DNA of 59,888 bases, taken from positions 1-59,888 of IMG/VR virus record IMGVR_UViG_3300025132_004452. The stretch is one strand, 5' to 3'. The DNA comes from a virus. Position 1 is the first letter of the stretch. The number at the start of each line of letters is the position of its first letter. Below are positions 5,991 through 38,800 of this stretch, in pieces. The position numbers and the translations under genes are program-made. The notes below the pieces were generated by a model. The model worked only from the letters and a program-made list of their open reading frames with translations, was not told the DNA's origin and did not search any database.

Positions 5991-6421
5991 CTTTTTTTAT
6001 CTTTATTAAGATTTTTAATAGCTACTTTTAAAACCTTGTCACTATAACTAGGTATGCCATTAGTTTTTATTTCAGGTATATCTTCTTCACCTAACATTAT
6101 TCTATACATTCTGTTTAGCAAGCGCTTAAACTTAAATGAAGCTTTATATATATGATACTTTTGAGTTGTTCTATTTCTTCTTCTCCAAACAACTATCCAA
6201 TCTTCTTTTAGTAATCTATTCCATCTTCTATTGTCCCAAGAATAAGAATAAACTCCCATTTTAAAATCTTGTTTTGTAAATAGCTCTAAACAATCTAGAT
6301 ACATTAAAAGCTCTAAGTCAGCATCATTTAAGTCATACTTTTTACAAGCCCATTTTCGTATTATACGATAATGCTTTAAAAGATTAAGTTCTTTAACCTC
6401 TACAGCTGTAAGTTTTCTCAT
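5987..6421 (-). CDS. Winged-helix (MarR-like) late protein
   Basis: A 144 aa protein predicted mostly helical with a beta wing: 'DLELLMYLDCLELFTKQDFK' (helix-turn-helix) followed by 'RWNRLLKEDWIVVWRRRN' and 'QKYHIYKASFKFKRLL' (wing and last helix). This resembles the MarR-like winged helix widespread next to structural genes in flavobacterial phages. It could regulate late transcription or bind DNA at packaging. It overlaps the GroES gene by 4 bases, so all three are coupled. Confidence 0.6.
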   Translation of the reverse strand: MRKLTAVEVKELNLLKHYRIIRKWACKKYDLNDADLELLMYLDCLELFTKQDFKMGVYSYSWDNRRWNRLLKEDWIVVWRRRNRTTQKYHIYKASFKFKRLLNRMYRIMLGEEDIPEIKTNGIPSYSDKVLKVAIKNLNKDKKR

Positions 6422-6678
6422 AGTACTATAACTACATCAAACTCTTTTATAACTTTATAAGTGTTTTTCTTTATCTCTATGTTAAAGCCAGCTGAACGAT
6501 CATAATATATTTTATCACCGTTTTTTATAACATTAACATCTTCACCTGTCTTAATAACTTTAGCTGTTCTATATCTAATGTCTTCTCTTTGTTTTTCAGC
6601 TAAAATTAAACCTCCTTCAGTTTTAACGGAGGTTTCTTTTATTGGATCTATAACTATATACTTACCTATTGCTTTCAT
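6418..6678 (-). CDS. groES: GroES-like co-chaperonin
   Basis: An 86 aa Cpn10-fold protein, slightly shorter than bacterial GroES (~97 aa). 'IGKYIVIDPIKETSVKTEGG' followed by 'LILAEKQRE' covers the first strand, the mobile loop and its hydrophobic GroEL-contact tripeptide (L-I-L in place of I-V-L). 'RYRTAKVIKTGEDVNVIKNG' and 'DKIYYDRSAG' match the conserved barrel (V-x-x-G-D-x-V-x-Y). The C-terminus 'FDVVIVL' is the final strand. The start overlaps the groEL stop (ATGA). It should cap the adjacent phage GroEL, or the host one, during folding of virion proteins. Confidence 0.9.
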   Translation of the reverse strand: MKAIGKYIVIDPIKETSVKTEGGLILAEKQREDIRYRTAKVIKTGEDVNVIKNGDKIYYDRSAGFNIEIKKNTYKVIKEFDVVIVL

Positions 6679-16589: not shown

Positions 16590-17415
16590 AGCTATGCTAG
16601 CGCATAAATACAATGAAGATAAAGCAGATTACCCTGCATTTATACAACCAAAACTAGATGGCGTACGTTGTTTATTCACGGCTAAAGGCGCATTCTCTCG
16701 TGCTAATAACCAGTTCATGAATGTAGAGCATATTGAACAAGCTTTAAAACCGTTCTTTGCAAAAAACCCTACAGCAATACTCGATGGCGAATTATACAAC
16801 CACGGGCTAAAAGATGACTTTGAAAAAATCATCTCATTAGTTAAAAAGAAAAAACCAACAGATGCTGACAAAGCTGAAGCAGCTGAACTAGTACAATACC
16901 ACATGTATGATGTAGCTAGTATGACAATAGCTACTTATGTAGACAGAAACTTATTTTTATTAGCTGAGCCATCATTTAGAAACAGCTCAATACTAGATGT
17001 AACACCTACTAGACTAGCAACTGACTTTGATGATGCACAAAGGTTTCATGCTAAAAACCTTAAACTAGGTTACGAAGGCTCTATATACAGAACACCATCA
17101 GGCAAGTATAAAGGTACAAGATCATGGGATCTTATGAAATTTAAAGACTTTCACGATGACGAAGCAGTTATCGTAGGCTATGAAACAGGTAAAGGTAAGC
17201 GACAAGGCACGCTCGGTAAGTTCATCATGCAAGATGACGAAGGCATAGAGTTCGGCTGTCCACCGGGCAAAGGATATGACTACAAGGATCTTGCAGGTAT
17301 GCTCGATAACGTTCATGACTATATAGGTCAACGTGCTACCTTTACTTACTTTCAAAGAACTCAAGCAGGTTCTTACAGGCATCCACACTATAAATGTTTA
17401 CGTAACTACGAATGA
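16570..17415 (+). CDS. ATP-dependent DNA ligase
   Basis: A 281 aa minimal ligase that seals nicks in phage DNA. Motif I 'QPKLDGVR' gives the AMP-accepting K28. Motif III-like 'AILDGELYNHG' and motif IV 'GYEGSIYR' follow; motif V 'LMKFKDFHDDEAVIVG' starts the OB-fold lid. A Shine-Dalgarno-like AAGGAGA precedes the start. The gene overlaps the neighbour by 20 bases. Size and motifs match T7-type ligases rather than NAD-dependent ones. Confidence 0.9.
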   Translation: MTKMKIKAMLAHKYNEDKADYPAFIQPKLDGVRCLFTAKGAFSRANNQFMNVEHIEQALKPFFAKNPTAILDGELYNHGLKDDFEKIISLVKKKKPTDADKAEAAELVQYHMYDVASMTIATYVDRNLFLLAEPSFRNSSILDVTPTRLATDFDDAQRFHAKNLKLGYEGSIYRTPSGKYKGTRSWDLMKFKDFHDDEAVIVGYETGKGKRQGTLGKFIMQDDEGIEFGCPPGKGYDYKDLAGMLDNVHDYIGQRATFTYFQRTQAGSYRHPHYKCLRNYE

Positions 17416-17921
17416 ATATATTTTATTTACATAAAGACCCAGTTGTTGCTGCTAAGGTACAATACAACAAACACGTTGTTAAAATGATCTTAGAATCAGC
17501 CCAGATGCTTTGTACAGCACATCATCATTATGCTGAACAATATGAATATGACAATAGTTATATACCTTACAGAAAAGCTCATTACAATCATCCATCTACA
17601 ATATGGACACGTGAAAGTGATGAGCATTACTTCTGGCTGTTTAATCATATGGTAGCACTAGGTAAAGAATATACTAAACGATACGGTAAAATACATTTAT
17701 CAATCAACAAATGTTTCTTACCATTATACAAATTACCAAATGGTATACCAAGCAAAGGTTTTGAACAACCACCTCAGTGTATGCCTGACGAATTTAAAAA
17801 CGAATGTAGTGTTAAAGCTTACTGGAACTACTACATAGGTGAAAAATACACAGTAGCTAATAAAGACGAGAAGATATATGAGAAAGCTGATATGGAAACT
17901 ATACAACGAAAATATGATTAG
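17412..17921 (+). CDS. Conserved phage protein of unknown function (169 aa)
   Basis: 'MNIFYLHKDPVVAAKVQYNK', 'HVVKMILESAQMLCTAHHHY' and 'HYNHPSTIWTRESDEHYFWL' match a protein common in marine and T4-like phages (M-N-I-F/I-Y-L...K-H-V-V-K-M-I-x-E..Q-L-L/x-C/S-T-A-H...H-P-S-x-x-W). It is His-rich, so metal binding is possible. Its place after the ligase suggests a DNA-metabolism role, but no activity is known to me. Confidence 0.65.
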   Translation: MNIFYLHKDPVVAAKVQYNKHVVKMILESAQMLCTAHHHYAEQYEYDNSYIPYRKAHYNHPSTIWTRESDEHYFWLFNHMVALGKEYTKRYGKIHLSINKCFLPLYKLPNGIPSKGFEQPPQCMPDEFKNECSVKAYWNYYIGEKYTVANKDEKIYEKADMETIQRKYD

Positions 17922-18298: not shown

Positions 18299-18916
18299 GA
18301 TAGAAATATAAAATATTTAAATGATAAAAGAATTATATACCGTACAACACCAACGGATAAACCAACTAAAGTTTATAGCTGGGGATTATATTACAAAGAT
18401 GGTACTTACCAATGTTATGATTTATTTAGGTCTAAAGCTAAAATAAATACTTATAAATCTTTAAAATGGCATTTATTAGTATTGTGGTATTTAAACCCTG
18501 AGCTTAATCCAGATCAATTTAAAAAACTAACGTATGTTTTAACTACTAAAGAAAATGGTTTTACTACTTTCAGCATATCAGATAATGTTTTAGAAAAAAT
18601 ATTACACGATGTGTATATGTCTGATCTTGAAGAACCACCAACTAATAGATTAAGAAAAATAATTTTTAATACTATGTGTGGTTTAACAGCTAAAGAAAAG
18701 CTAAAAATAGTAGGAAAGTTATCTGGCAAAAACAAAAAAGTACAACAAGATGATCTATATCAGAGCATGTTAGACATAAACGATATGGGTGTTAAAATAA
18801 CCATAAGTAATCTAGCTGAACTATTTAAATGTTCAAGTAGAACAATACATAGAAATATGGGCGAAGAGCTAAAAAGAGAAAAAGAATTATTAAATAAAGA
18901 AATTGAAAAAGTATAA
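18290..18916 (+). CDS. Helix-turn-helix DNA-binding regulator (208 aa)
   Basis: The C-terminal part 'VKITISNLAELFKCSSRTIH' plus 'RNMGEEL' (about residues 164-190) is a typical HTH: helix, turn, recognition helix. Residues 1-130 have aromatic-rich beta/helix sequence ('VYSWGLYYKDGTYQCYDLFR') of unknown fold. It is followed by the sigma-like gene, which overlaps it by 14 bases, so the two are probably a regulatory pair. The start has a strong Shine-Dalgarno and overlaps dyad copy C, suggesting autoregulation. Confidence 0.7.
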   Translation: MSYDRNIKYLNDKRIIYRTTPTDKPTKVYSWGLYYKDGTYQCYDLFRSKAKINTYKSLKWHLLVLWYLNPELNPDQFKKLTYVLTTKENGFTTFSISDNVLEKILHDVYMSDLEEPPTNRLRKIIFNTMCGLTAKEKLKIVGKLSGKNKKVQQDDLYQSMLDINDMGVKITISNLAELFKCSSRTIHRNMGEELKREKELLNKEIEKV

Positions 18917-19661
18917 TATTAAAAATTATATAAGATATAAAGAAGATATAAAACTAGCTATTCAAAAAATACCAGTTAAAAACTTTGTTGATTATACTAA
19001 TAAAGAACTAAAAATAATATTCTTACCTTTAGTAGAAAACGTTGCAAGAAAATTTTCAACCGCTCAAGAAGCTTCAGGTGTTATGTCTATAATGGATTTA
19101 ATACAAGAAGGTAGTATACAACTTTGCAAAGCTGTTGATAAAATAGATAGAGAAAAGTTAGCCGATTCAGATGATGTAGCTAAAACTCTAAAATCATTTT
19201 TTGCAAAAAGAGTTAGAGGTGGAATACGTAGAGAAATAGATAGAAACAGAGCTCAAATGCGTATACCAGAGCATAAACTAAACGAGATAAGAAAAGACGG
19301 TGGTAAAGATAAAAAAATGGTTGCTATGTTTTTTAATTCAATGTTTTTAAGTATAGATAATAAACCTTACGAAGATGATGATATGATATATCAAATACCT
19401 GATAAATCAGATCCTTATAATGAAGACATGTTAAATGCTTACATAATGAGCTTATTAACTAAACATCTTGAATGGAAAGAAATGTTTACATTAGAAAAAA
19501 GCTATGGTTTAACAGGTCCTAAATGGTCTGCTAAAGAAATAGCTGATAAATTAGATATACACGGAGTATCATCTTATGTAAGAGTTTCAGAGTTAAAAAG
19601 ACAAGCAGTCGACAAACTTATAGAAAATGTAGATCACTCGCAAGTGGTTGACTTTCTGTAA
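18903..19661 (+). CDS. Sigma-70-family-like factor, TTG start
   Basis: A 252 aa protein. 'SIMDLIQEGSIQLCKAVDKI' (region 2.1-2.2, core RNAP binding), 'LKSFFAKRVRGGIRREIDRN' followed by 'RAQMRIPEHKLNEIRK' (region 2.3-3-like, -10 recognition and melting) and 'WSAKEIADKLDIHGVSSYVR' then 'VSELKRQAVDKLIE' (region 4-like HTH) support a sigma factor. The first codon is TTG at 18903; no ATG fits upstream of the conserved part. It could direct host RNAP to the late convoy. Which promoters it reads is unknown. Confidence 0.8.
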   Translation: MKKYNIKNYIRYKEDIKLAIQKIPVKNFVDYTNKELKIIFLPLVENVARKFSTAQEASGVMSIMDLIQEGSIQLCKAVDKIDREKLADSDDVAKTLKSFFAKRVRGGIRREIDRNRAQMRIPEHKLNEIRKDGGKDKKMVAMFFNSMFLSIDNKPYEDDDMIYQIPDKSDPYNEDMLNAYIMSLLTKHLEWKEMFTLEKSYGLTGPKWSAKEIADKLDIHGVSSYVRVSELKRQAVDKLIENVDHSQVVDFL

Positions 19662-21288: not shown

Positions 21289-23001
21289 ATGCAAGTCGAA
21301 CAAACAGAGATCAATGGTTTTCAAATTGAAAACTTTAATCAGCACGGCTTAGAAGCAGGAAAACCGCAGGGGACTTGTCCCCTGTGTTCTTCTTCTAGGA
21401 AACCTGAGAATAGAAAAGCAAAGTGTGCTAGCTATGATTGGGAGCGTGGTCTCGGTACTTGCCATAACTGTGATAGCAGTTTTCAATTACACACATACAA
21501 ACGTAAAGGTAAAGCTGAACGTGACTATGTTATACCTGAAATTAAAAAGGTTGATCTTGTAGTTGATAAAACGTTAGAATGGTTTAAGACTAGAGGAATA
21601 TCTAAGGATACACTAGATGAATTAAAAGTTAGTGTTGGTAAAGAATACATGCCTCAAACCGGCAAAGCCGAGAATACTATACAGTTTAATTATTACGTAG
21701 GTGGACAACTTACTAATGTTAAATACAGAGATGGTAGAAAAAACTTTAAGCTTTACAAAGGAGCTGAAAAAGTATTTTATAACATAGATAATATTGTAGG
21801 CCATGATTACTGTGTAATTGTCGAAGGTGAGATGGATGTCTTAGCCTTACATGAAGCGGGAATTACAAATGCAATATCAGTTCCAAATGGAGCTACACTG
21901 AATACGAACAATCTAGACTATTTAGATAACTGTATTGATTATTTTGACGATATGTCTAAGATAATCATTGCGGTTGATTCAGATGCACCAGGACAAGCTT
22001 TACAGACTGAATTAATACGTAGGCTTGGAGCTGAGACCTGTTATATAACTACGTTTGATGATTGTAAAGACGCTAACGAGTACTTAATAAAGTATTCAGC
22101 TAAAGAGCTATTGTCACGTGTTACAAACGCAAAGCCTGTACCTCTTGAAAACGTTACAACGTTTAGAGATATCGAAGATGAAATTACAGACTTTGTTCGT
22201 AATGGATTTAAAAAAGGTTTTCAAATAGGTTTAGAAAACTTTGATAATATATTTTCTACGTATACTAAACAATTTATAACAGTCACAGGTATACCTAGTT
22301 CAGGTAAGTCAGACTTTGTAGATCAAATGGTTGTAGGTTATAATAAAGAATATCAATGGAAAACAGCATTTGCTTCACCTGAAAACGCACCAACATATTT
22401 ACACGCACATAAGTTAATGCGTAAAGTATGGGGTGATATGCCTGACAAAGGAGATATTGGTGGAGATAAATGGAATCAAGTAGCTGAACATGTTAATGAT
22501 AACTTTTTCTTTATTGATATGGAACGTTATACATTGGAATCTGTATTACGTAAAGGAGCTGAGCTTGTTAAACGTAAAGGTATTAAATGCCTTGTTATAG
22601 ATCCATTTAATAAGGTTAGAGACGTTGACTGTACAACAGAGGATGTTAACCGTTACACAATGGAATATCTAACTAAGATCGAAACCTTTGCTAAGAAATA
22701 TGACGTGCTAGTATTTATAGTGGCTCATCCAACTAAAATGTATAAAACGCAAGATGGAAAAATTGAAGAACCAACTATGTATAATATTAAAGGCGGCGGC
22801 GAATGGTACGATGCTAGTTATCACGGGCTTCTCGTCCATAGGGATTATGAGCTTAAGACAACTAAAGTTAAAGTTCTTAAGTGTAAGTTTCAAAACCTTG
22901 GTGAAAACGGTGCTGAAGCATTTTTTAAGTGGGAACCACGCTCAGGATGCTTTATTCCGGAGGTAGTGCCAGAGCTTGAAGAGAAAATGCCATGGGAATA
23001 A
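21289..23001 (+). CDS. Primase-helicase (T7 gp4-like)
   Basis: A 570 aa bifunctional enzyme. A zinc-binding domain with C30-x2-C33 and C58-x2-C61; a Toprim primase core with 'VIVEGEMDVLALHEAG' (E179) and 'IIIAVDSDAPGQA' (D230-D232); then a DnaB/RecA-type helicase with Walker A 'TGIPSSGKSDF' (334-343), a Walker B 'KCLVIDPFNKV' and 'FIVAHPTKM'. It unwinds the fork and synthesises primers. It follows the SSB by 9 bases. This is the only recognisable replisome motor in the genome. Confidence 0.95.
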   Translation: MQVEQTEINGFQIENFNQHGLEAGKPQGTCPLCSSSRKPENRKAKCASYDWERGLGTCHNCDSSFQLHTYKRKGKAERDYVIPEIKKVDLVVDKTLEWFKTRGISKDTLDELKVSVGKEYMPQTGKAENTIQFNYYVGGQLTNVKYRDGRKNFKLYKGAEKVFYNIDNIVGHDYCVIVEGEMDVLALHEAGITNAISVPNGATLNTNNLDYLDNCIDYFDDMSKIIIAVDSDAPGQALQTELIRRLGAETCYITTFDDCKDANEYLIKYSAKELLSRVTNAKPVPLENVTTFRDIEDEITDFVRNGFKKGFQIGLENFDNIFSTYTKQFITVTGIPSSGKSDFVDQMVVGYNKEYQWKTAFASPENAPTYLHAHKLMRKVWGDMPDKGDIGGDKWNQVAEHVNDNFFFIDMERYTLESVLRKGAELVKRKGIKCLVIDPFNKVRDVDCTTEDVNRYTMEYLTKIETFAKKYDVLVFIVAHPTKMYKTQDGKIEEPTMYNIKGGGEWYDASYHGLLVHRDYELKTTKVKVLKCKFQNLGENGAEAFFKWEPRSGCFIPEVVPELEEKMPWE

Positions 23002-23259
23002 ATGCTACCTAAAAAAGTAGAATGGAAACATCCTATGTGGAATAGAGAAAACACTATAGCATATCAATGGTGTATAAAACATGGTATTAAAATATACTCC
23101 GTGCCTTGCAGTAAGGGTTTTGGTAACAAGACTTGTTGGATAGAGGTAAATATAAACGGAAGAAAACAGTTAAGTCCAAAGACTTATGGTCCAACAGAAT
23201 TATGGCCAAAAGTTATGGAACTATATAAATTTTATTATGACAAAAACATTCGCAAATAA
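23002..23259 (+). CDS. Small protein after the helicase (85 aa), unknown
   Basis: 'MLPKKVEWKHPMWNRENTIA', 'YQWCIKHGIKIYSVPCSKGF' and 'KTCWIEVNINGRKQLSPKTY'. Aromatic and basic with three cysteines. It directly abuts the helicase stop and overlaps the next gene by 23 bases. Similar small proteins follow helicase genes in related phages. Function unknown. Confidence 0.55.
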   Translation: MLPKKVEWKHPMWNRENTIAYQWCIKHGIKIYSVPCSKGFGNKTCWIEVNINGRKQLSPKTYGPTELWPKVMELYKFYYDKNIRK

Positions 23260-23950
23260 ATTTACAAACGCAGATGAAGCTTTTCAGTATTGGTATCAAT
23301 GTATAGAAAAATACGGTACTGAATTTGCAGGTACTAAAGCTTTGTTTAATATAGGTTTTCAAATGGATAAACCTAATGAAAACCACATAAGACCAAGTTG
23401 GCGTAAGTGGAATCATGATTATGCAGAAGCTGAATGGCAATGGTATCTATCTGGTGATCGTAATGTAGAAGCGCTAGGTAAACTATATGGAAAAGTGCCT
23501 AGTATATGGAAACGTATGGCTGATAAAAAAGGTGAAGTGCACTCTAACTATGGTTATCAGTGGAAACGTAACGAACAATTAGATAAAGTTATAGCTTTAT
23601 TAAAGAGAGATCCAGAAACCAGACAAGCAGCAATATCAATATATGATGGTAAAGAAATAAATACTTATTGGAAAGATACGCCTTGTACTTATGCAGTTCA
23701 ATTCACAGTTGTAAAAGATCATTTAAATATGGCTGTTACAATGCGATCTAATGACCTCTGGTACGGCTTCTGTAACGATCAATATTGTTTTGCACAATTA
23801 CAAAAATTAGTTGCAGAAAAAACAGGATATGAATTAGGTTCTTATTTCCATTTTGCACATAACTTACATTTGTATAAAAAAGATTTAGACAAATACTTAC
23901 CGCAACGTCCTGATAATCTTATGCAAAGAAAAGCTGACCATTATGGATAA
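23237..23950 (+). CDS. Thymidylate-synthase-family enzyme, probably dCMP hydroxymethylase or methylase
   Basis: A 237 aa enzyme; the start is ATG 23237 (the open frame to 23186 overlaps the prior gene). The TS fold is clear: 'NYGYQWKRNEQLDKVIALLK' and 'RDPETRQAAISIYDG', catalytic C150 in 'DTPCTYAVQF', 'MRSNDLWYGFCNDQYCFAQL' and 'HNLHLY'. At the position of E. coli TS Asn177, which reads the uracil base, it has Asp181. This same Asn-to-Asp change marks T4 dCMP hydroxymethylase, so dCMP may be the substrate. MazG-like genes follow directly. If dCMP-specific, the phage DNA would contain modified cytosine. Confidence 0.8.
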   Translation: MTKTFANKFTNADEAFQYWYQCIEKYGTEFAGTKALFNIGFQMDKPNENHIRPSWRKWNHDYAEAEWQWYLSGDRNVEALGKLYGKVPSIWKRMADKKGEVHSNYGYQWKRNEQLDKVIALLKRDPETRQAAISIYDGKEINTYWKDTPCTYAVQFTVVKDHLNMAVTMRSNDLWYGFCNDQYCFAQLQKLVAEKTGYELGSYFHFAHNLHLYKKDLDKYLPQRPDNLMQRKADHYG

Positions 23951-24803
23951 AGAAACAACATATTATTTATACCATATACCGGGTAAAAAAATAGGTGTAA
24001 CGCGTGATCTTATAGATAGGGTTACAAACCAACAAGGCTATGCCTTAGACGAAGTAGAAGTTCTAGAACAAAGTAAAGATATTGATTATATATCTGACCG
24101 CGAGTTAGAACTTCAATTGTCTTATGGCTACAGAGTTGATAGACAAAAGTATAAAGACTTATACATTAATAAACCAAAAAACCAAATAATGAATATAAAC
24201 GCAACAGAACAAACCTCAACATTTCCAGTACCTTTAAATAAGTTAAAAGGTAGACTAATGGATGAATTAGGTAAAACGTGGGAAACTACTCATGGTCAGT
24301 TTAAAATATCACCAAGAACGATAGACTGGATTATGAAAAATGCTAAAACGTCAATGTACACCACTGAAAGAACTTATATATATAATAAAGCTTTCGCAAA
24401 AGAAATGTTAGTCGAAAACTTACAAGAGTACGCTAACATGCTAGACAAAAGAGTTAAGCAGACTAATGGTAAAGGAATGACTTGGAATAAAAGCTATTTA
24501 AAAACAGACAATAGGTTCCAGTTAATAAGAGACTGGGCTGGTGAACGTGGTCTTTATTCTAAAGGCGATACTAAAACTCAATTTTGTAAACTAATGGAAG
24601 AAGCTGGAGAACTTGGTAGAGCAGTATTAAAAAACGATCAAGCAGAGTTTGAAGATGCTATTGGCGATATGGTTGTTGTATTAACTAACCTAGCTCATTT
24701 AGGTGGAACAACAATTGAAGACTGTATTGACTCAGCATACAAAGTTATATCAAAAAGAACTGGTAAAATGGTTAACGGAACATTTGTAAAAGATGATAAG
24801 TAA
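23943..24803 (+). CDS. Fusion: GIY-YIG-like domain plus MazG-like pyrophosphohydrolase
   Basis: A 286 aa protein. N-terminal ~75 residues 'TYYLYHIPGKKIGVTRDLID' and 'DREL' resemble GIY-YIG nuclease strands (Y-x-Y/H-x-P-G-x-x-x-G-V/S-T-x-x-L-x-R). The C-terminal ~75 residues carry a MazG fold: 'QFCKLMEEAGELGRAV' (E219, E220, E223) and 'EFEDAIGDMVVVL' (D242). The usual second Glu of ExxD is an Ala, with Asp just before it. MazG enzymes hydrolyse (d)NTPs to NMPs; here they might remove dCTP. The middle is an unknown helical linker. It overlaps the TS-family gene by 8 bases. Confidence 0.7.
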   Translation: MDKETTYYLYHIPGKKIGVTRDLIDRVTNQQGYALDEVEVLEQSKDIDYISDRELELQLSYGYRVDRQKYKDLYINKPKNQIMNINATEQTSTFPVPLNKLKGRLMDELGKTWETTHGQFKISPRTIDWIMKNAKTSMYTTERTYIYNKAFAKEMLVENLQEYANMLDKRVKQTNGKGMTWNKSYLKTDNRFQLIRDWAGERGLYSKGDTKTQFCKLMEEAGELGRAVLKNDQAEFEDAIGDMVVVLTNLAHLGGTTIEDCIDSAYKVISKRTGKMVNGTFVKDDK

Positions 24804-25080
24804 AGAGATAAAATTTAGAGATCCTGTTGTTGAAACAGTTGTAGATAAGTTTGTAGGTCGATCAGACGTAGGCTTTAAAAAATATGGCCAAACATTAGAT
24901 TCAGAACGTAAGACTGGAGTTAAAGATCTAGCAGGTTATTTAAACGATGTGCAAGAAGAACTAATGGATGCAATATTATATATTCAGGCAGCTAAAGATG
25001 AGTTGGCTGAAGCTAAAGACAAAGTCTATGGCAACAGTGTTAACGGTTTACCATACTATGTCTCGGATATTGCGTCGTAA
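24793..25080 (+). CDS. MazG-like small protein (95 aa)
   Basis: 'VVDKFVGRSDVGFKKYGQTL' and 'DLAGYLNDVQEELMDAILYI' match the family of phage MazG-like nucleotide pyrophosphohydrolases with an E-E-L-M-D core ('ERxxxGxxKYGxxL...W/YLxxxxEELMDAxxY'). It would hydrolyse dNTPs. It overlaps the fusion gene by 11 bases, suggesting joint expression. Substrate unknown. Confidence 0.65.
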   Translation: MISKEIKFRDPVVETVVDKFVGRSDVGFKKYGQTLDSERKTGVKDLAGYLNDVQEELMDAILYIQAAKDELAEAKDKVYGNSVNGLPYYVSDIAS

Positions 25081-25510
25081 AAAACGCGGTCCAGTTAGAG
25101 CTAAGAAAAAAGTTGTAGATGGTATAGAGTTTAAGTCAGGACTAGAAGCATATATGTATAAAGCTTTGAAAGAAGCTGGTATACAAGCTGAGTACGAAGG
25201 GGTAAAATACGAACTTACCCCTTCATTTGACTTTAATAATAAAAGTTATGAACGACAAGGAAATGGAAAAGGCGAGTACAAAGATCGCGGAGGCAAGAAA
25301 ATACTTAAGATCTCTTACACACCTGATTTTACAGGAACAGGATTCATCATTGAGTGTAAAGGAAGGGCAAACGAATCTTTTCCTATACGTTGGAAATTAT
25401 TTAAGAAATATGTCAGCGAACGACTTCATAGCGTTACTCTATATAAACCACAAAATCAAAAAGAATGCGACGAAACCGTGAGCCTAATTCTTGGGAAAAA
25501 AAAGATATAG
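25058..25510 (+). CDS. PD-(D/E)XK nuclease, T7 endonuclease I (resolvase)-like
   Basis: A 150 aa protein from ATG 25058 ('MSRILRRKKRGPVRAKKKVV'); an open frame to 24968 overlaps the prior gene and is not used. 'FKSGLEAYMYKALKEAGIQA' (Glu in the first helix), 'SYTPDFTGTGFIIECKGRAN' (catalytic D then E-x-K) and 'RWKLFKKYVSERL' match T7 gp3-like Holliday-junction resolvases. It would process replication and recombination junctions before packaging. Confidence 0.85.
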   Translation: MSRILRRKKRGPVRAKKKVVDGIEFKSGLEAYMYKALKEAGIQAEYEGVKYELTPSFDFNNKSYERQGNGKGEYKDRGGKKILKISYTPDFTGTGFIIECKGRANESFPIRWKLFKKYVSERLHSVTLYKPQNQKECDETVSLILGKKKI

Positions 25511-25638: not shown

Positions 25639-25828
25639 AATTAACGCTATGACAAGAGTGTTACAGCAATTAATAAATGAAAATACGCAGTTAAGAGATT
25701 TATCTGTTGGATCTTTAGAGATAATAAAACTTTTGCCTGGATATGATGAAGCATTAGAATCTTTAAAAGATAGTGTAACTAAAAAAGAGAAAGAGAAAGA
25801 TGGAGATATCAAATCAGATACTAAGTGA
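25604..25828 (+). CDS. Small coiled-coil protein (74 aa)
   Basis: 'MKESTLLEMQNKINAMTRVL' then 'QQLINENTQLRDLSVGSLEI' form a heptad-like helix; the C-terminus is charged 'KKEKEKDGDIKSDTK'. Overlaps both neighbours, including the RNR start by 29 bases. No family recognised. Confidence 0.55.
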   Translation: MKESTLLEMQNKINAMTRVLQQLINENTQLRDLSVGSLEIIKLLPGYDEALESLKDSVTKKEKEKDGDIKSDTK

Positions 25829-27662
25829 GATAACAGTATACATGAAGTATGCTAAATATATACCAGAATTAAACCGAAGAGAAAGTTGGCATGAGCTTGT
25901 AACTAGAAACAAGGAAATGCATCAAAAAAAATATCCAGAATTAAAAGATGAAATTGAAAAAGTATATATCGATGTCTACAATAAAAAAGTTTTACCATCT
26001 ATGCGGTCGCTTCAATTCGGAGGTAAGCCGATTGAAATATCACCTAACCGTGTCTATAACTGCGCTTATTTACCTATTGATCATGTTGATTCTTTTAATG
26101 AAGTAATGTTTTTACTACTTGGTGGAACAGGCGTAGGTTACTCAGTACAGCAGCACCACGTTGCTAAACTACCTCCAGTTAATAAACCTTATAGTAAAAG
26201 AACTAGAAGATTTTTAATAGGTGACTCAATAGAAGGTTGGGCTGACGCTATTAAAGTATTAATGAAATCATATCTTGGTGACAAAAGAAGTTCACGTATA
26301 GAGTTTGATTACTCTGATATACGCCCTAAAGGTGCGATGTTAGTAACGTCTGGTGGTAAAGCACCTGGACCTCAACCACTTAAAGAATGTATAGTAAAGA
26401 TAACAGGAGTCTTAGACTCAAAGGAGGATGGAGATACGATCTCCACTATAGAAGTACACGATATAGTTTGCCATATTGCAGACGCCGTTTTAGCTGGTGG
26501 GATTCGACGAGCAGCATTGATCAGTCTGTTTTCAGCAGACGACGATCAAATGATAAGTTGTAAGTCAGGTGACTGGTGGGAAACTAATCCACAACGTGGT
26601 CGTGCTAATAACTCTGCTGTTTTAATGAGACATAAAATAACTAAACAATTTTTTATGGATTTATGGAAACGTGTAGAACTTAGTAATGCTGGTGAACCTG
26701 GTATATATTTTAACAATGATAAAGACTGGGGTACAAACCCTTGTTGTGAAATAGCTTTACGTCCATATCAGTTTTGTAACCTGTGTGAAGTAAATGCTAG
26801 TGATATAGAATCACAAGAAGATTTAAACGATAGAGTGAAATCAGCTGCGTTTATAGGAACATTACAAGCAGGTTATACTGACTTTCATTATTTAAGAGAT
26901 GTATGGAGAGAAACAACAGAAAAAGACGCTCTGATAGGGGTTTCAATGACTGGAATAGGGAGTGGAACAGTCCTAGGATACGACATGACGAAAGCCGCTC
27001 AATTAGTAAAAAGAGAAAACACGAGAATAGCAAAGGCAATTGGAATTAATCCAGCTGCACGATGTACAACTGTAAAGCCTGCTGGGACAACATCTCTGGC
27101 ATTAGGAACCTCATCTGGTATTCATGCATGGCATAATGATTATTATGTACGTAGAGTAAGAGTTGGTAAAAATGAAAGTATATATAAATACTTAGTTGAA
27201 AACCATCCTGAATTAATAGAAGATGAGTTTTTTAGACCTCATGACACCGCTGTAATTAGTATACCACAAAAAGCTCCAACTGGCGCGATACTTAGAACTG
27301 AATCACCATTTCAATTACTTGAACGTATAAAAAAAGTAGCTACAGAGTGGGTTCAGCCTGGTCATAGAAAAGGATCTAACACTCATAACGTTTCTGCTAC
27401 AGTTAGTTTAAAAACTGAAGAGTGGGAAGATGCAGGAGAATGGATGTGGGAAAACAGAAAACATTACAACGGGTTATCTGTACTACCTTATGATGGTGGA
27501 TCATATACTCAAGCTCCTTTCGAGGATATTGACGAAGGAACTTATATAAATAAGTTACAGCACTTAACTAACATAAATTTATTAAATGTTATCGAAACTG
27601 AAGACAACACTGATCTTAGTGGTGAGCTTGCTTGTGCTGGTGGTGCTTGCGAAATTACTTAA
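25800..27662 (+). CDS. Adenosylcobalamin-dependent (class II) ribonucleotide reductase
   Basis: A 620 aa monomeric class II RNR. 'PSMRSLQFGGKPIEISPNRV' and 'YNCAYLP' (first redox Cys), 'MFLLLGGTGVGYSVQ', 'NPCCEIALRPYQFCNLCEVN' (thiyl-site region) and 'TVKPAGTTSLALGTSSGIHA' are conserved. The end 'LACAGGACEIT' has the C612-x4-C617 redox-shuttle pair. It makes dNTPs using vitamin B12 and works without oxygen or a small subunit. It closes the rightward unit and is followed by a CxxC-CxxC peptide. Confidence 0.93.
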   Translation: MEISNQILSEITVYMKYAKYIPELNRRESWHELVTRNKEMHQKKYPELKDEIEKVYIDVYNKKVLPSMRSLQFGGKPIEISPNRVYNCAYLPIDHVDSFNEVMFLLLGGTGVGYSVQQHHVAKLPPVNKPYSKRTRRFLIGDSIEGWADAIKVLMKSYLGDKRSSRIEFDYSDIRPKGAMLVTSGGKAPGPQPLKECIVKITGVLDSKEDGDTISTIEVHDIVCHIADAVLAGGIRRAALISLFSADDDQMISCKSGDWWETNPQRGRANNSAVLMRHKITKQFFMDLWKRVELSNAGEPGIYFNNDKDWGTNPCCEIALRPYQFCNLCEVNASDIESQEDLNDRVKSAAFIGTLQAGYTDFHYLRDVWRETTEKDALIGVSMTGIGSGTVLGYDMTKAAQLVKRENTRIAKAIGINPAARCTTVKPAGTTSLALGTSSGIHAWHNDYYVRRVRVGKNESIYKYLVENHPELIEDEFFRPHDTAVISIPQKAPTGAILRTESPFQLLERIKKVATEWVQPGHRKGSNTHNVSATVSLKTEEWEDAGEWMWENRKHYNGLSVLPYDGGSYTQAPFEDIDEGTYINKLQHLTNINLLNVIETEDNTDLSGELACAGGACEIT

Positions 27663-29548: not shown

Positions 29549-29807
29549 CTCTATTTTGTTTAGTCATTTCTTTACACCATTCTCTAAGCTCTTGTATTTC
29601 ATCTTCAAGATCTTTTATATGGTTTGTTTGCCATTGTTGTTTTAAATCATATTCTATTCTATCTATAACAGCCTTAGGCATTTTTTTAGCTTCTTCTATA
29701 TCACTTTGTAGAGTGAAGTACATTCCCATGAATGACGATGTTACTACTATTATACTAACAATAGTTTTTAAATCTAATCTAAATTCGGTGCTTTCTCCTA
29801 TTTTCAT
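29529..29807 (-). CDS. Membrane-anchored coiled-coil protein (92 aa), spanin-like
   Basis: 'MKIGESTEFRLDLKTIVSII' and 'VVTSSFMGMYFTLQ' form one TM segment (about residues 14-34), followed by a periplasmic-type coiled-coil 'IKDLEDEIQELREWCKEMTK'. This plan resembles i-spanin/Rz-like or other envelope proteins. Its start overlaps the giant gene stop (ATGA). Confidence 0.55.
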   Translation of the reverse strand: MKIGESTEFRLDLKTIVSIIVVTSSFMGMYFTLQSDIEEAKKMPKAVIDRIEYDLKQQWQTNHIKDLEDEIQELREWCKEMTKQNRDGNKKR

Positions 29808-32800
29808 TTTTTCATTAGCTCTATAAGTTTTGCTACTCTATCTTTTTCGTATCTTAATGCACGAATCTGTTTCTTGCTTAAACCTAAACTATCTAAAATT
29901 TCAACTTGTCTAGGTTTTTTTAATTTTTTATACTTAGTAACTTCTTTTTGCTTGTTTTCTACATCTATGTCTTTTTGTGTTAATAGTTTTTTAGGCGAAT
30001 ATTGACCTTCATTATCTCTCTTAGCTTTCATTCTCTTTCTATAAGCTGACTTAGCTTCTTTTTGAGAATCTATATATTCTTTTCTTTCTTCAGTAGAATT
30101 AAGCTGATAATCTTTCCAACCTAATAAAAGAGATATTCTTTTCCAAGTTTGCTGTTCATCTTCTAAAGCACTTCTAACATTTTCTGATTTACTTATTAGT
30201 CTATCAACAGGAACGTTAGTCAGTCCTGATATAACATATGCAGCTGATTTATAAGCAGGATCATCTATACTCCATTTAGCTTCATCATGTTTATAACCTT
30301 CGTACTTCCAAGTTAAACCAGCTTGTCTAAGCTTACTTAGTTTTATATCTATAGGAGGAGAAAAGTTTAACATTTCATTTGCAGCGTCTTCGTAGTTAGG
30401 ACCTGGAAAAGTACCTTCTTTTTTAGACTCTTTGTATACTTTTCTACCAACTGATATTAATGTAGATAAAGCAACTCCATATATACCTGTACCATTTAAC
30501 ACCGTATTTAACATACCATTGGCTACATTTAAATATCTTTCGTTTTCACTTTCTTCTTCCTCTTCTTCATTAAAAGCTAATGCGAATAAACCTTGTTGTA
30601 AGGCTGAAAATATCATACTTTGTACAGCCATATAATAAGTAACTCTTGATATGTTACTCACATCACTTTGGAACTGTGTCATTCCTTTACGCTTTCTTCT
30701 GTTTATCAAATCTAAGAAAGATTTTTTACCTAACCTATTCATTTGCATAGGTGTATTTTGAAAAGCTAATATTAACCTACCTAAAGTACTCGCTTGTTGT
30801 TGTGACACTCTATCTGGACGAGATGATTGCTGTGACTCTTCTGCTATTTCTCTAAATTCTAAAAACGCTTGTTTTTTAGCATCAGCCTCACTCATACCTT
30901 CCTTCATTAAAGCATTTATTCTATTCCTATAAAATGTAGCACCACCTGATGCAATAGCAAAACTATCTGCAAATTGTGTTGGTAAGTAACCTTTAGAAAG
31001 TATATAAGCTATAGCTGCTTTAGCTTTATTTTTACTTGTAGCTGCAGCATCTGCTATTTCAGATTCACTCACGTTTAATTTTAACCCATTACGTCTTTCA
31101 ACCAAAAACTCAGAGTTCATTAACTCAGAAAAATCTTTCCAATATTGAGTTTGATTAGCAAAAGCTTTACCAGCATTATATATATTATTACTACCAAAGT
31201 CGATAAAGTTAACAGCTGATATAGTCTGAAGTAAAGCTGATCTCATGTTAAAAAACATAACTGTACCAACAGAATTATTAATATAATCTAACAATCTATT
31301 TTCTATTTTACCCATTTTGTTAGATCTGTTTCTACCAGACTTCATCCTAGAAATCATATCTTCCATAGCGTCTCTCCAGTTAGTACCAAAAGCAGCTTCC
31401 ATCTTGTTAAGATTTTTAGGTGAAAATATTAAATCAATATTATCTTGCCATTCTTGTAAGTACTTACTTCTTTTACCTGTTCTAAGACCGTCTAATAAAT
31501 CAGTTGATATAGTACCTGCTAACCAATTGGCTGTTGGCGCGGCGTAACCGTCACCTTTGTTTATGTCAATTAAGTTTTGAGCAAAAACATCTATAGCTTG
31601 GTTTTTCTTAGCAAAGGCTAACACTTGTTTTAAATCTGCTTTAGATATTCCTGGTATATCCATACCTTGTTTGTTCCACGCTAATATTCTAGCTACATCA
31701 GAGTGAGTGAATTCACCAAATGCTATTTTATTTAAGTTCTTAGGTATTAAACCCTCTTTAATTAGCTGCTCTTTTAAAACTTTAAAGTCATTGATCATTC
31801 TATTTTGATCACGAGATAAGTTTTCCATAGCTCTACCGTAAGGTTCAATTAAATGCTTATTGAAAAAGTCCATTTGCATGTTACCTATTTCACCTTTGCC
31901 TAACATAGAATATAATAAACCTACAAAATCCTCTGCAGAAGGTGGAATAAATAGTTTAAACTTACCTTTTTTTCTACCTACAAGTCTTGCTTTAACATCT
32001 GAATATTCTTTTTCAGATTTTATACCAGTTTTGTGTTCTATAATATCATTTACAGTTTGATCTACGGTTTTACTAAATTTAATTTTAGCTTGTTGCACTG
32101 CTGACTTAACATCTATAACACTTAAAGCATCTTTAACCGCTTGCACGTTTTGTATAGCATCATCTGCAAAATAAAAATCATTATAACCCTCAGCAGCTTT
32201 ATTAACTACCCAGTTAGCTTTAGCAGCACCTGTAGAGTTACCTAGACCAGTTATATTTTTTAAAGGTATATTAAGACCTAAACTATCTAAAAACTCTTTA
32301 ATTGCAGCTTGTGACTCAGGAGCTCTTGCTGTTAGCACAAAAACATCTTCTGTTCCTCTAGCTGCTTGTATTTTTTTAGCAACGTCTAATAATGGACCTG
32401 GCTTACCATCTCTAACTATATTGAAGTCACTAAAGTCAAACTCACCTCCTTCATTTAATATCTCTCCACCTCGTTCTGCAAATTCCTCAGCCGTTAATGT
32501 ACCTTTAGTTCCATCAGGCATAGTATAAAATACATTACTTTTTGTTCTTGCTAAAGTATCGTCAAAGTCGAACACTCTTATTTTTTTAACAGGAGCGTTA
32601 GGATCTCTAGCTATATCTAAAGCTTTATCCATCATATTAGCTTGCTCTATAGTCTGTTTATTAGTTTTAGTTTTAGAAAAAGGAGTAACACCACTATTTG
32701 ATTGAGATTTCTCATTAGCTTGAGTTGCTTCGTGTTGAGATTTTGCTAAAGCCAAGTGAGGTTTTAATATTTCATTTGCTATTTTAGAAGTAATTTGTCC

Positions 32801-35800
32801 ATCAAATATTTCAAATAATAATTGTTGTTGAATTTTTATAATACCAGGTGTTTGTAAATCTTTACTTACTTCTAAACCAAATTCTTTAGCTATTGAATTA
32901 CCATTAGACAATATAATAACATTAGGATTTATACCAGTGTGTTGATCACCATTTTCATCTATTCTAACTTGACTATTTACATTAGAGTTAAAATATCTTA
33001 TCCATACTGGTTTTAATCCTAACAATACGTCTGCTACATATTGAGAAGGAATATTTTTAATATAATCAAATTTAATTCCATCCGGTCCAACACCTTTTAA
33101 CATGCCGTCGTAAACTTTAGGTAAAGCTCCTTGAAAAAACGATTCTAAGGCTGGATCTATATATTGTTCTACATTATCTTGTGCCATTCTGTTTAATAAA
33201 AATTTCATTAAATCAGATGCAGGTTCTGTATGTTCTTCTACGTTTTTTAAATTAAGAGTATTTCCAAATTCTATAATTGAACCTGTTCTCCCAAAGTGAT
33301 TTTGAGAACCACTAGTAGAAGATAAAAGCCCTGCTACAACAGGTAAGAATTTAGCTTTATCAAACTGAACAGCGTCATTTAAAGACATGATTAATTCTTT
33401 AAAACCATCTCTTTTATTAATTTGCTCTTGCGTAAACTTAGGAGTACCTAACTCTCTTTGCATTTTAGCACTATAACCTTGTCTCTTAACAGCTTCTTTT
33501 ATATTTTTACTAGTTTCTACACCTTTGTCATCTATCTTAGTTTCTAAAGCAAAAGTATTTCCTCTTTTTTTAGCTTCTGCTATAGCGTTTTTTACTTGAA
33601 GAGCGTTAGCGAATAAAAACGTTCCTACAGGAGCGATTTTTAATTGAACTGATTTTTTAACAAAATCTTCATCTGAGTTTAATATTGTAGATCCATCAAT
33701 TAATTTATATTCTCTAAGGGTTTCTGTAGGTTTATTTAATAATCCATTTTTTTGTAAACGTTTTTTAACTTTAACACTTAGTGGAGTTCCAAGATTTACA
33801 TTATCTCCACCATTAGATAATGTTCCAGCCGTTAAAGCTGATTCAGGTAGGAAATTTATTAATGCACTGTTTTTATCAAAAAATATTTTATCTATAAGTT
33901 CTTTTTTACCCTCAGGAGTGTTTGCATCTATAGCGTCAAGATCATAGTTAGTTACTATTTCTTTAAAGTCCGCTTGCTCAGCTAGTAGTTGTGGACCAGG
34001 GTCGGCTTGAAACAAGTATGCTGTTTTAGCAATAGCTTTACTTTTAGCCTTTGGTAATTTAATTTTAATTTTACCACTATCTTCTACTATTCCCAATAAA
34101 GTGTTAGAATATAAGTTTAAGACTTCTTGTACGTTTTGATTTTTAGAAGATATATAACTTTTAATCAATTCACTTAAATCTTTTCCGTTTTCTATTTTAT
34201 TAATAATGTTTGAACCTTGTAAAAACTGTTCTAAGTTATTGATTTCATTTAAAACCTCGTACTGTTGTAGATTAGTTTTATTTGTTTTACTAAATTTAGA
34301 ACCAGGCACTCTATCAATATTCTTACCTACAACCGCTGTGTAATTCTCAGCTTGTCTTAATCCTTGTAACTCATAAATATCTTTAATTCTGTTTTGCACA
34401 GCTGGATCTTCTAAAACCTCCATAGTAGCGTCAAACGCTAACTCTTGAGCTATAGCACCTGCTAACGCATCTTTTCTAGTTCCTTTAGTCGATGCTCCTA
34501 CGTTTGAGCCTAGAAAATAATCCATAAACTCTGATCTCTTAACGTCTTTCTTTCTAAATAAAGGATTATTATCTGGTCTAGCTTGTTTACCTGTGGCTGG
34601 ATCAATTAATGGCTCTACAAACTGTCTAAATCGTTTGTTAGCGGTTGATTGTGATATAGCATTAAACACTGTTTGAAAGTTTTCACTTAAGAAAGTTTCA
34701 TAATTAGCTCTAGTACCTATAAACTTTTTTATCTCCTTAAACAATTCTTTGTCAAAAGCTTTTTTAAGATCTTCTCTAAACTTTTTATTGCTTACCTCAG
34801 GTAATTTAGTTCCAAGAACTTTACGCACAGAGTCTAAAACCTTATTATATATAGGTCCACCTTTCTCTATACCTAATTTAGTTCTCATGTTATCTATAGT
34901 ATCCTCTACTATATTAGCATCAATTCCAGCTTCGATATTAGTATCATCTGCAATAGTTTCTCCTATAGTTCTACCTTCTTCACCTAGCTTTTGATCTGTA
35001 GATACTTGTACGCCTGGTTTCTTAGCCTTTTCCCTCTTAGCTTTGTTAGTTACATCACCTACACGTCTGCCAATATAAGAGTTCATCCAAGCAAATAAAC
35101 TGTCATTTTTACTAGGGTCAAAACTCATTAAGTGATCAGCTAGCTTATCTCTAGTTTCTTGTATAATATTCTCTCTACTCTTGTCGTATATAGTTTGACC
35201 AGTAGCCATTTTATCTATAATGAGTCCATCAAACTTGCCTTGACTAATAGCTGTATACACTTTGCTAAATGCTCTATCTTTATCTTGAAGAAACTCGGCT
35301 TTAGTCATTTTATATTTGCCATCTGGACCTTTAGGACCTGGAGCTTCATTGGTTAAGTCTGTTAGCTCTGATCTTTCAGCTTTAGTTAAAGATAGTTTAC
35401 TTTTACTAACAGGTTTAGAATCTTTTTTAATTGTTTTCTTTTTACGAGATATTTCAGCAGTACCTTCAGCTATTGATTTAGTTAAACCACTTAGCTCACC
35501 TGTTTCAAAAGAATTATTATAACTAGTAATCATGTCAAATACATCTTTACCAGTTTTTATTTGTCCTGATCCATCATTAAATTTCTGAAACCTACCAAAC
35601 ATCTTATTGTACAAAGTTCTATCTGCTTCTAAATTATTCTGTCTCATAAAATCACTAAGCCTAGCTAAGCTTTCTTCAGCTACTAAAGTGGGGTTAGATA
35701 AATCACCTTTTGAGTCATACTCTCCATATAATTCTTTAGTTTCTAAAAAGTTTTGATATGCTTCTTTATAGTTTTTCTTAACATATGACTCAAGATCTTG

Positions 35801-38800
35801 AACTAAACCTACAGCATCAGGATTGTTTTCCATAAATTGCTTAAACAACGTATGGTGACCTATTTCATGAGATTGTACTGTAGAATTATTTCTGTTTAAA
35901 GCAAAAGTTATAGGTAGATTTATATTTTTAGTACCTTTACTACCGTCTTCGTTTGTAACTTCAATAGTTAGATTATCACCAAAAGCCATACCATTAACAG
36001 TTGCATCGCCTCTTGAAGCTTTGTCAGCTACTTCAAACTGCTGCTTCATTAATTCTTTTACTTGTAGCTTTTCTGAATCGTTTAAATCAGTTCTACTATC
36101 TACATATTCTAAACCTGCATCTAGAGCTTGTTTGTTGTTGTCACCAACAACCATTTCTACATTACCTAAAGTACCGTTTTTAGCTCTATAAGCATCAGCA
36201 AACTTTTTAGCTCTACCCTTATCAGCACTCCACTCTGCATTACTTAAAGTAAAATTCTTAACTGCTTCAACGGCCTTTAGTTCAATTAGCTGTTTGTTTA
36301 TAAGATCAGCTGCTGTTTTTTCGTCAAGATTTTTATCACTGTTTATTTTATCTATTTCAGATCTTATCTTGTGCTCAGCATTGAAACCATTTATTAGTCT
36401 TTGTCTATCTTCTTTAGTTAAAGACATTATTTCAGATCTAACTTTTTCTTGATCAGCTAATTGTTCTTTTGCTAGATCATGCATTTGTTTCTCTACTAAA
36501 GCCTTAGACTTAACTATAGCATCATGAGCTCCTGTTTTAGGCGTTAAACCAGCTAATTGCGTTTCATAACCTTTTATGGTATTACTTAATCTTAATATCT
36601 CTTTTCCTCTTTCTGCTATTTTAGCATTTCTATCAGGACCTCTAAAAGCTTGATATGTTTGTGCGACTAAACCAGGTGATTGCATAGTGCCAGACATTAC
36701 TAAACCAGAAACCATAGATTCAGTAAAACCATCTAGCATAGATACGTCTTTATTGCCTAGTATATATATCTCAGCAGCATTTTGAGATAGAGTAACAGCT
36801 CCTTCACCAAACGCTTCACCTGGAACACCTTTGACAAAATCTTTAGCACCTTCTTTTAAGTTTAACCATCGTTGATTAATCTTATTAGATATTGGCGAAC
36901 CTTTTTTAGCCACTTTGCTTAAGTCAAAAGCTTTTCTTAAATTTTTAGCACCTAGTTTAAAGTTGCCTAAAGTTATTTTTTCACTTGCATATTCAGCTAT
37001 ACCATAAATTCCAGCTGTACCATAAAATTGTAAAGCATTTATTTCTTCTGGTTGAATTTTATAAGTTTCATCATCACCTAAAGGATTAAAGCCAAACTCT
37101 TTTTTGAAATCTTGTATATATTTCATTTCGTTTAAGTTCCACTTTTCACCTTCCATACGCTTTTTCATATCGTACATTTGGTTACCACTTTCACTTAGTG
37201 CAGAAAGCACTAGACCACCACCGCCAGGAACTACTATTGATAAACCAGTGTTAAGTAATTGACCAGTTAGCATTTCAGTACCCCATCTCATACCGGCTTT
37301 AATACCATCTATTTCATCAAATCTTGCAGCAGGTCTATTTCTATTCAATAACTCTTCACCAAACTCAGAAGATTTTTTAAGCAAGTCATCAGCGGTTTCA
37401 TCTGCAAAGTTAGCAACATCCATAGCTAAGTTTACAGCATCACCTCCAGTTTCTCCAAACACATCATATGAAAAGTCGCTTATAGCTTTTACAGTGTCAT
37501 CATCTTTTAAGTCAAATCCAACGTGTTCTAAAACATTTAAAGGATTTGAAACTTCATTTAAAACAGCGCCTAGACCAGTAACTATTCTTACAGCGCTATT
37601 AGCAAGAATATTTTCATGGATTTCTAAAACGTTATATGTTTTTTGAGTTTTATCTATTATAGCTTGAGCATTATTTCCTTCAAACTGTATATTTCCTAAA
37701 AACTCCATATCAGCTTTTATATTTTTTTCAGCTAATATTACACTATTTTTTATGCTATTAAACTGATCAACGTCTTTTTGAGTTGCGTTAGGATCATTTT
37801 CTATTTTCTTTTTTAAATCATTTAATTTCGCGGCTTGAGCCAATATATTAACAGATTGCCCCTCGATGTTGTTGAGTATAACATTGGCTTCGTAATCACT
37901 GGTTTTGTTACTTAATTCTAATAGTCTTCCTAGATCTTTTTTATTTTTTTGATAATCTTCCCTAGAGTTTTCCATTCCTAAAACCTCATCAGCAGTAGTG
38001 TTAAAAAGTTTTTCAGCAATCTTCTTTTGTATAATAAACTGAGGAGCACTAGAGACAAGATTAACCACGTTGTTCCAAGCACCAACTCCTTGTTTATCTT
38101 CAAAAGTTTCTAAGGCTTCATCTATTGTATCTCTAACTTTTTTTGAATCAAGTTTTTCTTCAGATATTAAAGAAGTAGCAGACATTCTACTTGTTAAATC
38201 TAATAATTCAGGGCTTATATTTATATCTTTTACTAACTCAGGGTTTTTTGTTACCTCTTGTATAGAAGGTAAATATATTAACTCATTGTCAGTTCCTAAA
38301 CTAGCAACTGCATCATCTTTGTTTGTTGTTGTTTTTTTACCAGTCTTTTTTATATCAATAACCATATCCTGGTATTGATCTAAAAAGTTTTTTGTTAATT
38401 CATTTGATTTTCTACTAGCTTGCTTAGCCCAAGTAGTTGAATCAGAGCCTTTTCTACTTTCATTATTGCTCAAAGGTTTTAATTTCCAAGTAGCTGCATT
38501 ATTTGGATCGTATTTTTCACCATACCATTTCTTAGCTAGTTTATTATATGATATATCTTTCCATCTTTTTTTATTACTATCTATAGGTAAAGATCTATTA
38601 ATAAGATCTTGATTCTCCTCTTTGTTAGCCAATGCATATATTAAAGAAGACCCAACGTATTTACCACCAGACTGTTGTAATAAATTAGCATTTTTTAAAG
38701 ATTCTTTTTTCTGTGTTATTTTTTCATTAATTTCTTCATCAGTTGCTTGGGTTTCTATTTCAATGTTTTTTAACAATTTAGCAGCTGTTAATCTATCATT

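Follow-up and report, generated by a model that had tools for sequence, protein, structure and literature searches.

A predicted dCMP 5-hydroxymethylase paired with a MazG-domain protein in uncultured podovirus-like phages of Flavobacteriia

Introduction

Does a thymidylate synthase (TS)-family gene that lies beside a MazG-like gene in an uncultured phage serve the supply of thymidine nucleotides, or does it make a modified cytosine, and if so, which one? We addressed this question in IMG/VR record IMGVR_UViG_3300025132_004452 (59,888 bases, ~33% G+C), the whole of which is referred to here as the window. An earlier note on this DNA had read the locus as a likely cytosine-modification locus that resembles a base-replacement pathway for 5-hydroxymethyl- or 5-methylcytosine. 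The relatives compared with the window are IMG/VR contigs, none of them an isolate, and these contigs, like the window record itself, may be incomplete.

The window terminase and portal match those of Flavobacterium elemo, Cellulophaga, and Tenacibaculum phages and of the uncultured MW202828 (44–63% and 40–50%, respectively, for the best matches), indicating that the window virus is, by its sequence, a podovirus-like, uncultured phage of aquatic Flavobacteria/Flavobacteriia. Phage GroEL/GroES are common to these terminase/portal relatives; in the window, the GroES and GroEL genes are located at 6418–8216, and another PHROG match named GroES at 58411–59004. The window also encodes a sigma factor (Sigma70_r2, PHROG 351; 18903–19661) ahead of the replication genes, and a single ORF of 3154 aa (29804–39268) that is probably a large internal virion or ejection protein.

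Results

A conserved gene order around the TS-family gene

The gene for a TOPRIM primase/DnaB-like helicase (21289–23001; Pfam and PHROG), a conserved upstream landmark, is followed on the same + strand by a small conserved gene with no assigned function (23002–23259; PHROG and synteny), the TS-family gene (23237–23950), a MazG-domain gene that we call MazG1 (23943–24803), a gene for a small protein (24793–25080), a DUF1064 (Holliday-junction-resolvase-like) nuclease gene that serves as the conserved downstream landmark (25058–25510; PF06356, 2.9e-11; PHROG 190), and a gene for class II (B12-dependent) ribonucleotide reductase (RNR), which provides deoxynucleotides (25800–27662; PHROG 367, 3.2e-128; PF21995). 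The TS-family and MazG1 genes overlap by 8 bases, and the order from primase to RNR recurred across the majority of 80 loci.

Between phages with 88–98% identical primases, TS and MazG1 (window 23237–24803) are only ~70–82% alike, and the flanking genes are more alike, which suggests that this slot evolves fast or is often exchanged. A single recent module exchange was considered as the cause; however, the low likeness of TS and MazG1 was seen between most pairs and can equally be explained by rapid evolution or by repeated exchange. A further gene conserved upstream of the slot (17412–17921) gave a weak match to the pyrimidine-dimer DNA glycosylase family PF03013, below the cut-off (E = 0.0051), and its product matched PHROG 624, 'DNA binding protein' (1.1e-45).

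Active-site residues of the window enzyme resemble those of T4 dCMP hydroxymethylase

The ORF at 23237–23950 encodes a protein of 237 aa that belongs to the TS family, as the earlier note had stated (Pfam Thymidylat_synt, E = 1.8e-29; PHROG 160 thymidylate synthase, 3.3e-43). Direct alignment with the E. coli ThyA sequence placed Asp181 (codon GAT, 23777–23779) at the position of E. coli TS (EcTS) Asn177 and T4 Asp179, again in agreement with that note. Asp at this position denotes cytosine and Asn uracil (PMC6400193, PMC5175136, PMC8670742), and SPO1 gp29 has Asn in this column. The predicted preference for cytosine is supported by this alignment, by published mutagenesis of N177/D179 (works cited in PMC6400193 and PMC8670742), and by the occurrence of Asp in both TS branches found at the locus (see below): all 249 unique proteins of the two enzyme types have Asp, and none has Asn177.

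The remaining residues bear on which product is formed. In addition to the nucleophile Cys150, Glu66, and Asp181 for cytosine, the window protein has the deoxyribose residues Ser171 and Arg129, the folate residues Asp173 and Gly177, and the PABA residue Trp91. In the ternary complex of the T4 enzyme, hydroxymethylation is marked by Asp or Glu at Cys−3 together with a Ser/Thr-x-Tyr motif, whereas TS has Leu at Cys−3 (PMC6400193). The residue at Cys−3 was counted directly, as the EcTS-numbered alignment is offset by a gap there. In the window protein it is Asp147 (Asp147-Thr-Pro-Cys150, codons 23675–23686), accompanied by Ser103-Asn-Tyr105, so that both parts of the signature are present. The C-terminal TS tail, which is also missing in T4 dCMP hydroxymethylase (PMC6400193), is absent: the protein ends 24 residues past the HLY motif, and many relatives end only 4–6 residues past it. 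In place of the Asn177, Leu at Cys−3, His147, and C-terminal tail of canonical ThyA, the window protein has Asp, Asp, Thr, and no tail. Of 157 unique relatives, 156 have the set S-Y-D-C-T-S-D intact and the remaining one is truncated; because these critical residues are invariant apart from that one protein, Asp181 and the signature are not a product of chance.

Searches against solved structures gave a consistent picture. With the single sequence, the nearest were T4 dCMP hydroxymethylase (2.5e-17) and MilA (4.8e-17); with a profile, MilA (1.8e-24) and the T4 enzyme (3.6e-23) were followed by the best ordinary TS (1.6e-22) and by 9iqc (1.5e-14). An AlphaFold model of the enzyme had the TS fold (pLDDT 90), and in Foldseek its top matches were MilA and the T4 enzyme (E = 2e-18 to 1b49), with TS structures matching as well. 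Because the signature is complete, the folate residues are kept, and the closest solved relatives are hydroxymethylases, we predict that the window enzyme is a folate-dependent dCMP 5-hydroxymethylase of the T4 gp42 type that forms 5-hydroxymethyl- rather than 5-methylcytosine. The choice between the two products, which had been left open, is narrowed in this way to a predicted 5-hydroxymethyl base in the window, with 5-methyl predicted in the sister phages described next.

A ThyA-type enzyme with Asp177 occupies the same slot in sister phages

A search based on the TS protein alone made the slot look uniform, and fetching loci by the primase brought out a second enzyme type. In sister phages with primases ~76–80% identical, another TS-family gene lies in the slot, followed by the same MazG1. 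Its product is a full-length ThyA (Pfam 3.4e-84) that has the C-terminal tail, Leu at Cys−3, and, at position 147, His or in rare cases Tyr. Asp177 (in the motif LGLPYDI) was present in 92 of 92 unique proteins of this type; their closest references, E. coli ThyA and the ThyA of four phages, have Asn. In a tree whose deep branches are unsure, the hydroxymethylase group stood apart from the ThyA-type group, each with 100/100 support, and the ThyA-type group was nested within ThyA; therefore, Asp177 arose separately in the two. By the N177D rule, the sister-phage enzyme is predicted to be a dCMP methylase. dCMP methylase is a rare activity, of which Xp12 is the classic case.

Exactly one TS-family gene was found per record in the 29 hydroxymethylase-type and 32 ThyA-type records searched, and this exclusivity, like the sequences, residues, and synteny described above, is a direct observation. 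We consider it about as likely as not that the position between the primase and the constant MazG is an exchangeable cytosine slot, held in some lineages by a dCMP hydroxymethylase (5hmC) and in others by a dCMP methylase derived from ThyA (5mC), whose branches reached Asp177 separately, and that a one-gene swap would switch the chemistry of the genome with the same MazG and host kinases.

Several further features of the two types were noted. ThyA-type proteins that combine Asp177 with an intact active site of the methylase type were found in loci L125, L126, L133, L160, L161, L168, L170, L171, and L253–L331; the copy in L125 appears frameshifted. A class II RNR gene was present in 25 of 39 hydroxymethylase-type and in 0 of 28 methylase-type testable loci fetched by the primase. 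The methylase-type phages examined have a class I RNR (small and large chains; for example, L133 14491–17612), whereas the window has the class II gene at 25800–27662. IMG/VR gave over 500 matches for the hydroxymethylase and 368 for the ThyA-type (methylase-type) enzyme.

MazG1 accompanies both enzyme types

The next two genes had both been described as MazG-like. This holds for the first: MazG1 has a PF03819 MazG domain over residues 216–272 (E = 5e-6; 27.1 bits against a cut-off of 22), matches PHROG 1992/715 (MazG-like pyrophosphatase), and carries an acidic, metal-binding-type motif (EEAGE...DAIGD), the second half of which is DxxxD, not the textbook ExxD. The description had overlooked the first ~150 residues, a separate, conserved GIY-YIG-like region (YHIPGKKIGVT...), and a weak MUG113 match was found in the relative L037. 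This N-terminal half (window 23943–24390), comprising the strongly conserved GIY-YIG-like region and a KINxTEQTxTFPxPxNKLKG stretch, is fused to MazG within the group and could tie the pyrophosphohydrolase to DNA or to another protein. Among the cultured phages of the collection, we found no full-length counterpart of MazG1, no record covering 80% of it.

The second gene (24793–25080) could not be assigned to the MazG family. Its small product, conserved in the group with a QEELMDAxLYI motif, had no Pfam hit and matched only PHROGs with no assigned function; the AlphaFold model (pLDDT 85) has three helices, and its best PDB match, M. tuberculosis MazG, was not significant (E = 6.7). A homologue is present in elemoA phages, which do not have the TS.

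Loci fetched by MazG1 and with room upstream had one of the two enzymes directly upstream in 72 of 72 cases (66 hydroxymethylase, 6 ThyA type), and MazG1 adjoined the ThyA-type enzyme in all 76 testable loci; elemoA and the replication region of MW202828, which are without the TS, are also without MazG1. Because gene order kept by descent proves little, further gene contexts were sought, and three were found in which a hydroxymethylase-type TS is paired with a MazG domain: L095, with MazG upstream, L020, with the order TS–dCMP deaminase–MazG, and L037, with another genome plan. Of all these observations, the convergence of two TS-family branches on the cytosine residue, with MazG constant at their side, argues most strongly that cytosine is the target and that MazG1 works with the enzyme.

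MazG domains are common in phages (1044 records), and their base specificity is not readable from sequence; a cyanophage MazG prefers dGTP and dCTP (PMC6850273). The proposed removal of dCTP in the manner of T4 gp56 remains plausible for MazG1, given its tie to the cytosine-type enzyme throughout the group and in the three further contexts, and makes it a candidate dCTP-to-dCMP enzyme; for the second gene, for which the same role had been suggested, a relation to MazG is not established.

Alternative roles for the enzyme and searches for accessory genes

We consider it quite improbable that the enzyme is an ordinary thymidylate synthase converting dUMP to dTMP for nucleotide supply, with Asp181 incidental and MazG engaged in general nucleotide recycling. 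In its favour, thymidylate synthase is the name given to the entire family PF00303, these genomes have no other phage TS or ThyX (ThyX was found in none of 41 hydroxymethylase-type records), and ThyX occurs in MW202828, which belongs to the same terminase group. However, Asp rather than Asn occupies position 177 in every one of the unique proteins of both branches, and the two features tied to methyl (hydride-transfer) chemistry, Leu at Cys−3 and the C-terminal tail (PMC6400193), are respectively replaced by Asp and missing.

It is equally improbable that the enzyme makes hydroxymethyl-dCMP (hmdCMP) not for incorporation into modified phage DNA but as a trap or drain on the dCMP/dCTP pool used by the host or by a defence enzyme. 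This reading would accommodate the missing kinase. The earlier note had found no dedicated hmdCMP kinase, and the searches confirmed this for the P-loop types tested: PF21448 (T4 gp1-type) and PF02223 (Tmk-type) were negative in the window and in 40 and 33 relatives, respectively. A Walker A motif occurs in just one of the window ORFs of recognized enzymes, that of the primase-helicase, and none encodes a kinase-type Walker A protein, so that these scans did not find the dedicated kinase of a complete T4-like base replacement in the window record, which may itself be incomplete. MazG, moreover, would strengthen such a drain. On the other hand, the phage itself needs cytosine nucleotides, as its G+C content indicates, the synthesis of DNA bases is the known role of the enzyme class, and TS genes of this kind are associated with physically modified DNA (PMC8670742). 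As no kinase was found, phosphorylation of hmdCMP by host kinases or by an unrecognized kinase is assumed. Searches for beta-glucosyltransferase (in which T4 matched as the positive control), GT2, and carbamoyltransferase found none in the members searched; further modification of 5hmC was therefore rejected, and unglycosylated 5hmC is predicted. dCMP deaminase was likewise not found in the group members searched.

The earlier note had also named 5-methylcytosine as the possible product, but it seems very improbable that the window enzyme is itself a dCMP methylase. Exchange of Asn177 for Asp alone makes TS a dCMP methylase, according to works cited in PMC8670742, and the sister-phage enzyme at the locus fits that class, but the window protein contains Ser103-x-Tyr105 along with the water-activating Asp147, lacks the TS tail, and is nearest in structure to hydroxymethylases.

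Most unlikely of all is a flavin-dependent 5-hydroxy-dCMP synthase yielding 5-hydroxycytosine, like RB69 ORF048c of the Mosigvirus type (PMC13390438), to which 9iqc ('monooxygenase dependent on riboflavin with dCMP and FAD') is nearly identical in sequence. In its favour, the fold search matched 9iqc at equal size (TM 0.79–0.80), and RB69 shares Asp177 and the acidic character of Cys−3, so that these two residues alone do not suffice to identify a hydroxymethylase. However, EcTS Asp169, Gly173, and Trp80 are N, V, and A in RB69, whereas the window protein and all aligned relatives keep Asp173, Gly177, and Trp91, the profile E-value is far weaker than that for MilA, and no glycosyl genes were found. 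The folate-dependent reading is preferred because the folate residues kept in the window are lost in RB69.

Discussion

The best explanation of the locus as a whole, which we regard as likely, is that a T4 gp42-like dCMP 5-hydroxymethylase acts together with dCTP cleavage by MazG to place 5hmC in phage DNA, with 5mC in the sister phages, and that this allows escape from defence. Substrates, products, the presence of the base in DNA, and its role against defence are what we infer from the residues and from homology. Cys150 would attack C6 of dCMP, with Asp181 holding and protonating the cytosine ring; methylene-tetrahydrofolate would donate the carbon; and a water positioned and activated by Asp147 with Ser103/Tyr105 would complete 5-hydroxymethyl-dCMP. 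MazG1 probably cleaves dCTP to dCMP, which would at once eliminate the normal base and supply the enzyme with its substrate, in the manner of T4 gp56 and, for dGTP, of S-2L MazZ; this is the weakest step. hmdCMP would then be raised to hmdCTP and built into DNA, which would carry plain 5-hydroxymethylcytosine. In sister phages, the dCMP-methylase-like ThyA in the slot would give 5-methylcytosine with the same MazG partner. The purpose would be escape from restriction and other DNA-targeting defences.

The T4 gp42/gp56 pair shares with the window the same cytosine, hydroxylation, and folate residues, the absence of the C-terminal tail, and a nucleotide pyrophosphohydrolase partner, and gp42 is about 32% identical to the window enzyme over 173 aa. 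Unlike T4, the window virus is a podovirus-like flavophage, its partner is a GIY-YIG-like/MazG fusion whose relation to gp56 is not established, and searches of members of its group turned up no gp1-type kinase, no beta-glucosyltransferase, and no dCMP deaminase. MilA, the CMP hydroxymethylase of mildiomycin, is the best profile and fold match and likewise has Asp at 177 and at Cys−3. It prefers CMP through Ala/Lys at the ribose (PMC5175136), whereas the window protein has Ser171/Arg129, as in deoxy-specific enzymes.

The closest named relative of the window enzyme, with 47% identity and the same active-site set, is found in Bacteroides fragilis phages BF503P1/P2/P4, BF486P2/P3, and BF494P1. 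This protein, annotated as deoxycytidylate 5-hydroxymethyltransferase, falls in the same tree branch (96/91), but the phages have an unrelated genome plan, with an AAA_28 P-loop protein and dUTPase nearby and no MazG recognized adjoining the TS. The cultured BF503P2 (L001 8471–12669) has a single cluster with two proteins bearing the dCMP-hydroxymethylase signature, the P-loop AAA_28 protein (a possible nucleotide kinase), and dUTPase.

For the proposed partnership, MazZ of S-2L is a proven MazG-fold enzyme feeding a base-modifying enzyme (PMC8342488). As would hold for the window, a small MazG-fold pyrophosphohydrolase provides the monophosphate to PurZ, encoded beside it; unlike the window, the S-2L pathway is one for a purine (2-aminoadenine), and MazZ is (d)GTP specific. 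In an experimental study of environmental phage contigs (MetaGPA), Asp177 TS genes, and their co-occurrence with genes for PRA-PH (MazG-related) pyrophosphohydrolases, were enriched on physically cytosine-modified contigs (PMC8670742). The window resembles these contigs in having both kinds of gene together, but the MetaGPA clusters often include carbamoyltransferase and dCMP deaminase, neither of which was found in the members of the window group that were searched. The enzyme class, the residue code, and this co-occurrence on modified contigs were already known. What appears to be new, as far as the literature searched shows, is the occurrence in flavophages, with a minimal gene set and with a slot in which 5hmC and 5mC enzymes are exchangeable.

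Taken together, these findings point to an abundant phage group that probably carries modified cytosines as a shield against bacterial defences. If so, base-modified DNA would be standard in a group of uncultured Bacteroidetes phages that is large and has been sampled widely, achieved with a gene set much smaller than that of T4, which would affect how sequencing, restriction, and CRISPR see such phages. The locus would also be a source of dCMP methylase and of a residue code testable on purified enzymes. Finally, it would constitute a natural two-state system, with 5hmC or 5mC at one locus, suited to asking which base is favoured by which host defences.
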